Shown piece by piece: positions 58,045 to 63,541 of a DNA stretch of 64,000 bases (within the stretch, counting starts at the first letter, position 1; every line of letters begins with the position of its first letter). The stretch spans positions 1,295,001-1,359,000 of the forward strand of contig CP166131.1 of assembly GCA_041228345.1 (NCBI GenBank), in the 5' to 3' direction. A program made the position numbers and the translations under genes. Source of the stretch: Alphaproteobacteria bacterium LSUCC0396 (lineage in GTDB: Bacteria; Pseudomonadota; Alphaproteobacteria; Puniceispirillales; Puniceispirillaceae). Under the pieces are notes generated by a model. It ran no database searches, was not told the DNA's origin, and was given only the letters and a program-made list of their open reading frames with translations.

Positions 58045-58231
58045 CATTGTCGTCAGACCGGATGAAACAGGCCAAGCCTTGCCGATTACCACAAGCTGCG
58101 ATAATAATTTTGCAGGAGAGGGAATTAACTGACAGGCGAATTGCCGATGATTAACGCCAGCACATATGACCCGCAACCAAAAAAGGCCAGCAAAAGTGGC
58201 CGGCAGAAACCCGTTGAAGGAGTATCTTTTC

Positions 58232-60181
58232 ATGGACCATGACACGATCTTTGAGCCAAGCGCAGATCTGGCTAAATCAGCTCATATAGATGCCAATGGC
58301 TATGCCGCCCTTTATGCAGAATCGATTGCCAACCCTGATAAGTTCTGGGCCAAACAGGGCAAACGTATCAACTGGATCAAGCCCTATAGTCAGATCAGCG
58401 ACGTGTCCTATGACGCCAAAGATTTACACATCAAATGGTATGCAGATGGCACATTGAATGCTGCGGCCAACTGTCTTGACCGGCATCTTGCAACACGCGG
58501 TGAGCAAACCGCGATTATCTGGGAAGGTGATGAGCCTGACCAGCATCGCCATATCAGCTATCGTGAATTGCATGAAGACGTGTGCAAATTCGCCAATGTG
58601 CTAAAGGCGAATGGCGCCAAAAAAGGCGACCGGATTACCATCTATATGCCGATGATCCCCGAAGCCACAGTGGCGATGCTGGCATGTGTGCGAATAGGGG
58701 CGGTTCATTCGGTCGTGTTCGGCGGTTTTTCACCGGATGCGCTGGCCGGACGCATTCAAGATTGCGATTCGACCATGGTCATCACCGCCGATGAAGGCGT
58801 GCGAGGTGGCCGGCCAATTCCGCTAAAGGCGAATACCGATGCGGCGCTCGCCAACTGCCCCGATTGCACAACAACAATCGTGGTCAAACGCACGGGCGGC
58901 GCGATCGATTGGGTTGAGGGGCGCGATGTCTGGTATCACGAGGCCATGGAAACGGCCTCGGCCGACTGCCCGCCAACCGAAATGAACGCCGAAGATCCAA
59001 TGTTCATTCTCTACACCTCGGGATCAACCGGCAAGCCGAAGGGGGTGCTTCATACAACTGGCGGCTATATGGTTTATGCGTCGATGACGCATCAATATGT
59101 ATTTGATTACCATGATGGCGATATTTATTGGTGCACGGCCGATGTGGGCTGGGTCACCGGTCACAGCTATATCGTCTATGGGCCGCTGGCAAATGGTGCG
59201 ATAACGCTGATGTTTGAGGGTGTACCAACCTATCCTGACAGTTCGCGTTTCTGGCGCGTTGTCGAAAAACATAAGGTGAATATTTTTTACACGGCACCTA
59301 CCGCCATCCGTGCCTTGATGCGCGAGGGTAATGATCCTGTTACGGCCTGTGACCGCTCATCGCTGCGACTCCTTGGGTCAGTTGGCGAGCCGATCAATCC
59401 AGAAGCATGGATGTGGTATCATGATGTTGTTGGCGACAAGCGCTGCCCGATTGTTGATACATGGTGGCAAACCGAAACTGGCGGGATTCTGATTACCCCA
59501 TTACCCGGCGCGACGGCCACGAAACCCGGATCGGCGACCAAGCCGTTTTTCGGCATTCAACCGGTGCTGGTTGATGGTGATAATAAAATTTTGGATGGCG
59601 CGAGTGACGGCAATTTATGCATTGCACATTCATGGCCTGGCCAGATGCGGACGGTTTATGGCGATCATCAACGTTTCATCGAAACCTATTTCACCACCTT
59701 TCCCGGTCGTTATTTCACCGGTGATGGGGCGCGCCGTGATGCGGATGGTTATTTCTGGATTACCGGCCGCGTTGATGATGTGTTGAATGTATCAGGACAC
59801 CGGATGGGCACGGCCGAGGTTGAATCCGCATTAGTGGCTCATCCAAAAGTTGCCGAAGCCGCTGTTGTTGGCTATCCGCATGATATTAAAGGGCAGGGCA
59901 TTTACGCCTATGTCACGCTTGTCGCAGGTGCAATTGCGGACGACGCGTTGGCGGCCGAACTGCGACAATGGACACGCAAAGAAATCGGCCCCATAGCGAC
60001 ACCTGATTTACTGCAATGGGCACCACAATTGCCAAAGACCAGATCAGGCAAAATCATGCGGCGGATTCTGCGCAAGATTGCCGCAAATGAATATGACCAG
60101 CTTGGCGACACATCTACCTTGACTGATCCGGCAGTGGTCGATGATCTTGTTGAAAACCGGCAGAATCGCGACAAGGGATAG
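58232..60181 (+). CDS. acs: Acetyl-CoA synthetase (AMP-forming)
   Basis: Activates acetate to acetyl-CoA through acetyl-AMP. 649 residues from [15 protein letters not shown], whose ATG has GGAG 10 bases upstream. The adenylate-forming signature is [20 protein letters not shown]; later motifs are [10 protein letters not shown] and [20 protein letters not shown]; the C-terminal hinge and lysine [11 protein letters not shown] near residue 611 is the usual acetylation site controlling the enzyme. Length is standard. It follows recX and a 22-bp duplication, with its own leader. Confidence 0.97.
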
Positions 60182-60347: not shown

Positions 60348-60959
60348 CTAGCTAATGCCAAGCTCGATAGCGCGGCAAACCGCATGGGTGCGGTTCTTTG
60401 CGCCTAATTTTGACCGTAGACTTTTTAAGTGATGCTTAATCGTGACCTCACTTAAGTTGAGCGAGCGCGCGATTTCCTTATTCGAGCTTCTCGCGAGGAG
60501 CCCCGAGAGAACATCATGCTCACGGCCAGTCAGATAGCGTTTCCCGGCCAATACATCCTCATCCGCCAGAATATCAACTGGAACAAAAGTTTCACCATTC
60601 GCGATGAGTTTGATTGCGCTCAGGGTTGCTGCGGCACTCATCGAATAGGTTAGATATCCCGACGCCCCTGCCATAAGCAGATCACGGATCGATCGCCGAT
60701 TTGCTGCTGGCCCGATCAGGGCAATCGGCATCGGATAGACAAGGCTTTGGCGAACCTCTTTTAAACTATTCACCCCATCCATATCTGGCATTTTCAAGTC
60801 AAGCCCGATCACATCAAGATGCATGTTATCTCTGGCAATCTCGAGACAATCCTTCACAGTGCTAACCGTGATTACCTACAAAAATTCCTGTCCAGACACC
60901 ATGTGATTTTGCATAAAATCACGACAAAGACTGTTTCCATATCCAATTAATATATTCAT
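60348..60959 (-). pseudogene. LuxR-type response regulator interrupted by an in-frame TAG
   Basis: An ATG at 60959 has GGAG about 6 bases upstream and opens with MNILIGYGNSLCRDFMQNHM, matching the start of NarL/FixJ-type receivers (ILI-x-D-D in active members). Codon 28 is TAG (60878-60876). The same frame then continues without further stop to a complete protein of 203 codons. The phosphoacceptor would be D54 (VIGLDLKMPDMDG), the expected position, and the output domain is a LuxR helix-turn-helix (about 140-200, YLTGREHDVLSGLLARSSNK and SEVTIKHHLKSLRSKLG). The acidic pair of active receivers is replaced by Y7 and G8 (IGYGNS), so phosphorylation was probably already weak. A GTG at 60857 could re-start translation to give a shorter DNA-binding protein. 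Confidence 0.78.
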
Positions 60960-61198
60960 GTAACACTCCATCATACGAAACAAAGAGCAAAGTAGGTCTT
61001 ACTTTCTTGTGAGTGTATTGTTACTCAAACTAGTAATTGCAAAAAGCTGATGAACGGCTGTCACTTGTTTGGATTTTCAACCAAAAATTTAAATCTCTGG
61101 CCTCATTCGTCGTTTCATTCACCGTTTCAAGAGATGCGCCAGCATCGCGAACCTACGGCCTTCCAGCTTGTGGGACATAAGGTCTTTTGAATATGGTG

Positions 61199-62617
61199 CT
61201 AGAATTGATACCGAAGATAGACTGTGTAATTGGTCCTATGGCGACGGGCGAATTGATCTTGCGAGCGAATCCGAACAGGATCAAGTTCGATGCCGCCGGT
61301 CAAATTGCCAATCAGCCTTTCGACACGCATATTCATTCGGGTTGTTGCGGTTTCATGCGGCGCAGCAAGGTATAATTGTGCTGTTAAAAACTGTCGCTTC
61401 TCGTGCTGATACGATATAATTGTGTTCCACCGCGATAAGGGCGACCATTGCAATTCGACCTTGACCGCCCGGCCAACTGACGCCAATAACCGGCGCCGCG
61501 GAAACAAACGGCTGCGCTGCTCAAGATAGGTACCAATATGCCATTCAATGCTGTTTTCCGCACGGCCAGAGACACCACTAGTAATGATCAATAGCTGATT
61601 GTTTGCCTGACGCGACCAGTGCCGCTCAAGTGCTAGGCCATGCCGGTAGGAAATATTCCATTTACGCAATTGATAGAGCGTAATGACGTCAAAACCTGCC
61701 CACGATAAATCCAGATCCTCACCCTCCACACCGCGCAATTGCGATGATGAGCCAAGCCGCAATGATATGGCCTTTGATTGCAGTTCAGTCTGATGCCAGC
61801 CAAACAGATAGCGAAGCCCAAACCCATCGCTGCCAATTGTTGATTTACTGGTTACGGTTTTCGCGATCCGCAACGCAATATGGCAAAATTTTCGGTGATC
61901 ATTTGGCAGGGTCAGGGAAAATGATGTGGTGAACTGGCCCTGATATCCAGATGATGTATCCACTTTATGATGTATCTGGCGAAGGCCATCACAGAGCTGG
62001 GAATAGCGCGCGCAAAACTGATCAATCTGCGAGCCTGATGCCGCCGCTACATAGATCTGTTGTGGTGCGTCGATCAGTGATTTCCGTCGACTGAGGCTGA
62101 TGTCCGCCATCGCAGTTACCAGCCAGATATCACCACAAGCATTTTCAATATACCGCAATGCTGGCCAATGCCGGCTTGACCGATAGCGTTTGCGCATTTG
62201 CCGAAAGAACGGCTTGGCTAATACGCATTGCCGAAACCGTTGAAACAAACTGGCAATCTGGAAATGTAAACGGCGTGCTTTGGGGTAGCGTTGCAACGCC
62301 TCGTTGGCCAGTTTGACCGCATCGCCCGCACGCGCCAGACCAAGCAATAAGCCGATCGCATGCCGATAAGATTTCAATCTATGCCGAGACGCCGCTAATG
62401 CATGGCGGGGCGATGTCTGTTCCGGGCCATTCACCTTTGCCTGAGCTTTTGGCCGCGTTAAGCCTGTTGGTGGGTGCGGATCAATAACGCCTGCAGGACT
62501 CTGATCAAATATCTGGGTAATCGGGGATTGCTGGTCTGCCTCGGCCAGACTGTTTGAAAAGAGCAGCAACAGTGCAACCAGACCAATTATGAACAAAGAA
62601 GTTTCCAGCACCACCAA
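61199..62617 (-). CDS. Outer-membrane protein with TPR-like N-terminus and beta-barrel, Slam-like
   Basis: 472 residues starting with TTG; a GGTGA lies about 10 bases upstream. The N-terminus (TSLFIIGLVALLLLFSNSLA) is a signal peptide. Residues about 75-150 are helical with TPR spacing (HRLKSYRHAIGLLLGLARAG, ALQRYPKARRLHFQIASLFQ). From about 165 to the end the sequence alternates in strand pattern and ends in YLRYQF, a C-terminal phenylalanine typical of outer-membrane barrels. This helical domain plus barrel of about 300 residues matches the Slam (surface lipoprotein assembly modulator, DUF560) layout. No candidate client lipoprotein is encoded next to it. Family assignment is by architecture, so moderate. 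Confidence 0.55.
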   Translation of the reverse strand: MVVLETSLFIIGLVALLLLFSNSLAEADQQSPITQIFDQSPAGVIDPHPPTGLTRPKAQAKVNGPEQTSPRHALAASRHRLKSYRHAIGLLLGLARAGDAVKLANEALQRYPKARRLHFQIASLFQRFRQCVLAKPFFRQMRKRYRSSRHWPALRYIENACGDIWLVTAMADISLSRRKSLIDAPQQIYVAAASGSQIDQFCARYSQLCDGLRQIHHKVDTSSGYQGQFTTSFSLTLPNDHRKFCHIALRIAKTVTSKSTIGSDGFGLRYLFGWHQTELQSKAISLRLGSSSQLRGVEGEDLDLSWAGFDVITLYQLRKWNISYRHGLALERHWSRQANNQLLIITSGVSGRAENSIEWHIGTYLEQRSRLFPRRRLLASVGRAVKVELQWSPLSRWNTIISYQHEKRQFLTAQLYLAAPHETATTRMNMRVERLIGNLTGGIELDPVRIRSQDQFARRHRTNYTVYLRYQF

Positions 62618-62839: not shown

Positions 62840-63541
62840 TCATTCGAGAATTGATTTCAGCTTTTCGGTGATAAACGCGATCGGCTCATTATGCACAATC
62901 GTGCCTTTGAAACTGCCATCATCGCGATATAGAAATACCGCAGCACTGTGATCATAGAGATAATCACCATCGCCCTGATCGGTTTTCTGCGCAAAGACGC
63001 CAAATTGTTTCAGCGCCGAGCGTACCTTTTCCGGTGATCCGGTCAGGCCGGTAACCTCTGCCTCGAATAGGCTAAGATATTGTTTCAACTGATCTGGCGT
63101 ATCGCGTTCCGGGTCAACCGTGACAAACAGGATTTGCAACCGGCTGCTGTCGATACCAGCGGCGCCAAGGTTATCGCGCGCCGCCGCTAGAGTGGTTAAG
63201 GTGGTCGGGCAGACATCCGGGCAATAGGTAAAGCCGAAAAACAGCGCCACAGGCCGGCCGGCAAAATCACCAGCAGAGCGCGCCGCACCGTTTTGATCAC
63301 GCAGTTCAAGCTGGTTATCCTGAAAATTCGGAATGCCCATTGTCGTCTTTTTGGCAAAATGATCGGATGTAAAAAAGACACCTGCCGCCACGCCAGCAAA
63401 CAGCAGCACCGCGATGATTATTTGCCAGAATTTCCCAAATGACCGGCGCGCCTCATGGTCGGCGGCCGGCACCTGATTTGCGGGTTCCCGAACTTTGGGT
63501 GATTTTGAACGCGCCTGTTTCATGCCCCAGATGTAGGCCAT
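62840..63541 (-). CDS. SCO1/SenC family copper chaperone
   Basis: 233 residues, membrane-anchored thioredoxin-like protein that delivers copper to the CuA site of cytochrome oxidase. N-terminal cytoplasmic tail of about 37 residues, one span at 38-57 (FWQIIIAVLLFAGVAAGVFF), then the periplasmic domain. Copper ligands are C107 and C111 (FTYCPDVCPTTL) and H198 (DYLYDHSAAVFL). VTVDPERDTPDQLKQYLSLF is the conserved thioredoxin-fold segment. The first ATG is used; another six codons later is possible. Fits with the heme A synthase gene elsewhere in the window. Confidence 0.94.
   Translation of the reverse strand: MAYIWGMKQARSKSPKVREPANQVPAADHEARRSFGKFWQIIIAVLLFAGVAAGVFFTSDHFAKKTTMGIPNFQDNQLELRDQNGAARSAGDFAGRPVALFFGFTYCPDVCPTTLTTLAAARDNLGAAGIDSSRLQILFVTVDPERDTPDQLKQYLSLFEAEVTGLTGSPEKVRSALKQFGVFAQKTDQGDGDYLYDHSAAVFLYRDDGSFKGTIVHNEPIAFITEKLKSILE

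Follow-up and report, generated by a model that had tools for sequence, protein, structure and literature searches.

The window, that is the whole 64-kb stretch of DNA analysed here, carries on its reverse strand an interrupted response-regulator gene of 203 codons plus stop (60348–60959), assigned by open reading frame, Pfam and alignment. The ATG start codon is located at 60959–60957, with a GGAG six bases upstream (60966–60969, same strand) which, by eye, is the likely ribosome-binding site. A TAG interrupts the frame at codon 28 (60876–60878); beyond it the same frame is open to codon 203 and ends at a terminal TAG (60350–60348). When read through, the frame gives above-threshold Pfam matches to Response_reg (43.2 bits) and to GerE (58.1 bits), with the phospho-site Asp54 codon at 60800–60798 and the LuxR/GerE helix-turn-helix (HTH) at residues 143–197 (60369–60533). 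A preliminary description of this sequence had reported the ribosome-binding site and start, the TAG at codon 28, the continuing frame and a complete receiver-plus-HTH protein after it, all of which were confirmed. The frame aligns over practically its whole length with 20 stop-free homologues, and the genome, one contig of 2,592,803 bases, contains it only once. Together with the conserved gene order (below), these features indicate that the regulator frame is more than chance. A structural model predicted from 32 sequences folds as a receiver plus HTH (mean pLDDT 86.6, pTM 0.62), and its nearest solved structures are LiaR, ChrA, spr1814, VraR and NarL.

The convergent neighbour of the regulator is the acetyl-CoA synthetase gene acs (58166–60181, forward strand). 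Upstream, on the reverse strand, are a 472-codon gene (61199–62617) and the next marker of the conserved order (62840–63541), which we take to be SCO-like. Naming the 472-codon gene by Pfam was attempted and gave nothing above cut-off; it had no match near acs in several other genomes devoid of the regulator. The bacterium is a marine member of SAR116, as are its named relatives. In SAR116 genomes, the order otc-argD-dcd-ABC gene-recX-acs (names which are presumed here), followed by the convergent regulator, is conserved wherever visible, and in the genus of the window the SCO-like gene follows the regulator.

The receiver was already described as atypical for want of its acidic pair, and this holds for the other SAR116 copies as well. 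Among 26 distinct stop-free copies (rows shorter than 180 columns and duplicates were dropped) the pair is absent in 26/26, the two positions being occupied by Y22/F3/L1 and E13/A11/G1/Q1 and, in the window, by Tyr7-Gly8. The residue that follows is Asn in all 26, and the phospho-site Asp is likewise kept in all 26. The Thr/Ser position is G22/D3/H1 and the Lys position Y18/K8; the window receiver thus also lacks the conserved Thr/Ser and Lys, which adds to the earlier observation. In contrast, 77 canonical NarL/FixJ-type relatives from other Alphaproteobacteria, with the same domains and the same Asp, have the D-D acidic pair in 73 cases (3 unaligned, 1 other) and both Ser/Thr and Lys in 77. 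The SAR116 copies come from two families (f1 and f2). The sampled genomes of families f3 and f4 gave at best weak matches (lowest value 9.9e-5) and otherwise none; the gene is thus not found across the whole order. As the alignment shows, the intact protein is a LuxR/NarL-type response regulator which has lost the acidic pair and Thr/Ser, both required for normal phosphorylation, while keeping Asp54; it most likely works without Asp phosphorylation.

A comparable arrangement is that of the VpsT/CsgD type, where a LuxR HTH lies behind a receiver which does not act as a phospho-switch. VpsT matches the SAR116 protein in sequence via the HTH, and in fold it ranks below NarL-type regulators. Pseudo-receiver domains of atypical response regulators are defined in the accessible part of PMC12632262, where the way they are switched is called a mystery. 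By that definition, as far as this part of the source gives it, the intact protein is, on sequence grounds, a pseudo-receiver regulator: three or four of the five conserved receiver residues are missing, while the predicted receiver fold and a DNA-binding output domain are kept. It differs from the regulators covered there in that the phospho-Asp is retained in every SAR116 copy and the pocket has residues of its own (Y/F/L-x-N, with Gly for Ser), a form which two SAR116 families share. Among the matches listed in an open-licence library there was no paper dealing with this regulator in SAR116, and none turned up there on response regulators of Puniceispirillales.

Some features of the locus recall regulators of acetate metabolism. 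In the accessible parts of the sources, MctR and CrbR/ErdR are regulators of monocarboxylate and acetate genes (NCBIfam; PMC5715377; PMC9100948), and CrbR, of the LuxR family, activates acs in Pseudomonas fluorescens (PMC5715377). The SAR116 protein is also a LuxR-type response regulator, its best curated (NCBIfam) match is MctR, and it is convergent with acs in each SAR116 locus where both are visible. It is nevertheless unlikely that the intact protein activates the neighbouring acs in the manner of CrbR or MctR. The MctR match reaches 84.2 bits against a cut-off of 300, hence the regulator was not filed under MctR, and the phosphorylation residues, acidic pair included, are gone. The palindrome found in the regulator's own promoter region (below) is present in 0/14 acs upstream regions, which for this motif speaks against CrbR/ErdR, and it differs from the ACTU sequences printed in the accessible part of PMC5715377. 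Moreover, acs remains where the regulator has been lost. CrbR/ErdR has a partner kinase with an SLC5 domain; the GHKL-ATPase matches in this genome number 12, in frames of at most 811 codons, and all lie outside the window. The 77 loci outside SAR116 showed no acs orthologue within the flanking stretches covered (approximately 1.5 kb for 27 loci and up to 6 kb for 50); three of them (L114, L118 and L158) show a distant 23–26% match to acs, directly adjoining the regulator in L158.

Upstream of the interrupted gene lies a palindrome, TGAGTR-N6-YACTCA (61010–61027), a candidate operator which is new here and which has exactly one exact match in the genome. The relaxed form GAGYR-N6-YRCTC occurs upstream of the regulator in 24 of 29 distinct SAR116 regions, starting 37 to 149 bases before the start codon, and matches only once in the 64 kb of the window. 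Shuffled upstream regions gave a mean of 0.07 and a maximum of 2 matches, a figure which is descriptive and no blind test since the motif was first spotted by inspecting the same regions. In the five regions without it, the closest match scores 8 or 9 of 10 in four (L005, L007, L010 and L107) and 6 of 10, no better than chance, in L014. A sigma-70 promoter overlapping or beside the palindrome was looked for and not found.

Over 61 genomes, 46 exact TGAGTR-N6-YACTCA sites were present in 30 genomes, compared to 3 for a reversed control pattern; 17 are upstream of the regulator and 29 elsewhere, some in genomes without the regulator. A wider palindrome regulon was considered and rejected: 22 of the 29 non-regulator sites were read (20 stretches); these are located within genes, between two convergent ones or ahead of unrelated ones, and among them no target recurred in front of genes. 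In G002, which has an intact regulator, three exact palindromes occur within 100 bases before a 414-codon frame (L234:4704-4800). In three related genomes (L238:1169, L239:4990 and L240:1617) the palindrome is close to the 3′ ends of a convergent gene pair, where it may have another role.

The position of the palindrome suggests autoregulation by a phosphorylation-independent regulator: the protein would bind the palindrome before its own gene, a site seen directly in the sequence, and would thereby control its own expression. In the window the palindrome has stayed intact, which a recent stop would lead one to expect.

Concerning the stop itself, G061, classed as the same species, encodes lysine at codon 28, and its frame stays open until the contig ends at codon 140. 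Over codons 1–139 and besides codon 28, the window differs from it at four positions, all synonymous (dS about 0.04); codon 140, the last one on the contig, encodes Lys in the window but Asn in G061. Sense codons at codon 28 are likewise present in G003 and G002. The frame is thus interrupted where close relatives are open (to codon 140 in G061), which supports a very recent pseudogene or a strain polymorphism, as had been proposed. Comparison with G003 gave a dN of 0.129 and a dS of 1.721, the latter near saturation; this low dN relative to dS argues for purifying selection on the gene until recently. Of two G061 contigs (L056 and L169), that carrying the regulator differs from the window at 12 of 1919 bases and that carrying acs at 3 of 3458 (Fisher p 0.0006). 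In view of this gap, the regulator contig may come from a neighbouring strain in a mixed-strain bin, or may result from recombination. Whatever its origin, this copy, at a dS of about 0.04, is open over all the codons available.

Codon 157 (60489–60491, reverse strand) is Arg in the window and Gly in the other 20 alignment rows, a weak sign of possible decay; a stop-free control, L098, has Ser there. Changed conserved residues were in fact rejected as proof of decay since stop-free controls also depart: among six SAR116 controls outside the alignment, invariant-column departures numbered 1 in L092, L098 and L103, 2 in L099 and 0 in L101 and L106.

We consider it probable that the regulator gene, as assembled, is a recently inactivated allele of a dispensable, putatively autoregulated pseudo-receiver gene. 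Translation in the window strain would then end after 27 codons and no working regulator would be made. The preliminary description had also raised a sequencing error, in which case the TAG would be a wrong base of the assembly and the gene intact in the organism. One substitution suffices for this, a single assembly is compatible with it, and the only same-species genome has a sense codon; such sense codons in relatives distinguish recoding from mutation but do not tell whether the mutation is real or an error of this one assembly. However, the TAG is one of 12 differences spread over the 1919 bases compared with G061, and this locus is commonly inactivated in the genus, namely in 11 of the 13 genomes where it is readable (below). 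An error therefore seems less likely than a real change, and we regard it as improbable.

A functional stop, with readthrough, recoding or re-initiation at a GTG (60855–60857, reverse strand) controlling the regulator, would suit the open downstream frame with its phospho-Asp and HTH but is very hard to credit, since none of the aligned relatives has a stop at codon 28, the GTG is GTC in G003, and a restart there would omit residues 1–34, where the model has its first strand and helix. No Shine-Dalgarno sequence was seen by eye before this GTG, and a tRNA scan of the 64-kb window returned one gene, a tRNA-Gly. TAG is an ordinary stop here, terminating 22 of the 47 window frames taken as genes, the last codon of the regulator included. 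Both the readthrough and the re-initiation proposed earlier are thus disfavoured.

The recent inactivation proposed for the window gene is in line with the fate of the locus in its genus. The position of acs could be located in 14 of the 16 genomes surveyed (not in G001 and G005), and G006 ends at acs, leaving 13 readable genomes, with G061 read through its separate contig. One of the 13 is intact (G002), one is open as far as seen, two have single stops, five retain 3′ relics and four have nothing. The single stops are located at codon 28 in the window genome (G000) and at codon 179 in G003. The relic of G008 comprises codons 117–203, following a deletion of approximately 2 kb which took out the 472-codon gene together with regulator codons 1–116 and is flanked by short imperfect repeats. 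That of G011 starts from about codon 114 or 141, depending on the query, and those of G012, G007 and G010 are about 25 codons each with a common boundary, the G010 relic being frameshifted. No regulator trace was detected at the acs place in G004, G009, G013 and G014.

The different lesion positions in G000, G003, G008, G011 and the G007/G010/G012 group point to at least five separate inactivations in the genus. Lesions were counted by position because an acs tree proved unreliable for counting losses, with G021 of another genus placed inside the genus and midpoint rooting only. In that tree G003 (L171) is sister to G006, G004 and G012, where G004 has nothing, G012 a relic and G003 a full-length gene with one stop; this full-length copy amid losses may reflect either a late transfer or a weak tree. 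In the wider family, regulator relics are present in G030, G018 and G017, and an in-frame stop in G367, from a different genus, whose copy (L107:1692-2294) has a TGA inside the HTH. Most genomes with broken copies are metagenome bins and may hold errors.

Nothing seen here indicates that the relic genomes maintain a separate HTH protein. In the G011 relic, 8 of 34 conserved columns are changed. The G030 relic departs at 3 of 39, but stop-free controls also depart at one or two invariant columns. The G008 relic has a dN/dS of 0.97 over 87 codons, a value based on just 2 synonymous changes and 6 others.

Taken together, these results show that the regulator is dispensable in the genus. The lesion positions imply a gene broken or deleted on at least five occasions, and the stop codon of the window is an early step of this ordinary, repeated gene loss. 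More tentatively, and as one possible reading among others, two SAR116 families would have a pseudo-receiver transcription factor branch of their own, with the phospho-Asp kept and the pocket rebuilt, acting through the palindrome as a switch of its own gene, in a circuit repeatedly discarded and caught in the window at the first step. As part of the same reading, the rebuilt pocket perhaps senses a small molecule or the metabolic state next to acs.

While the stop codon itself represents ordinary gene decay, the SAR116 pseudo-receiver and its candidate DNA site are of more interest. They form a clade-specific set with canonical relatives outside, and the predicted DNA site is directly testable. 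Intact, freshly broken and deleted alleles coexist in the genus, which thus provides natural knock-outs of the regulator.
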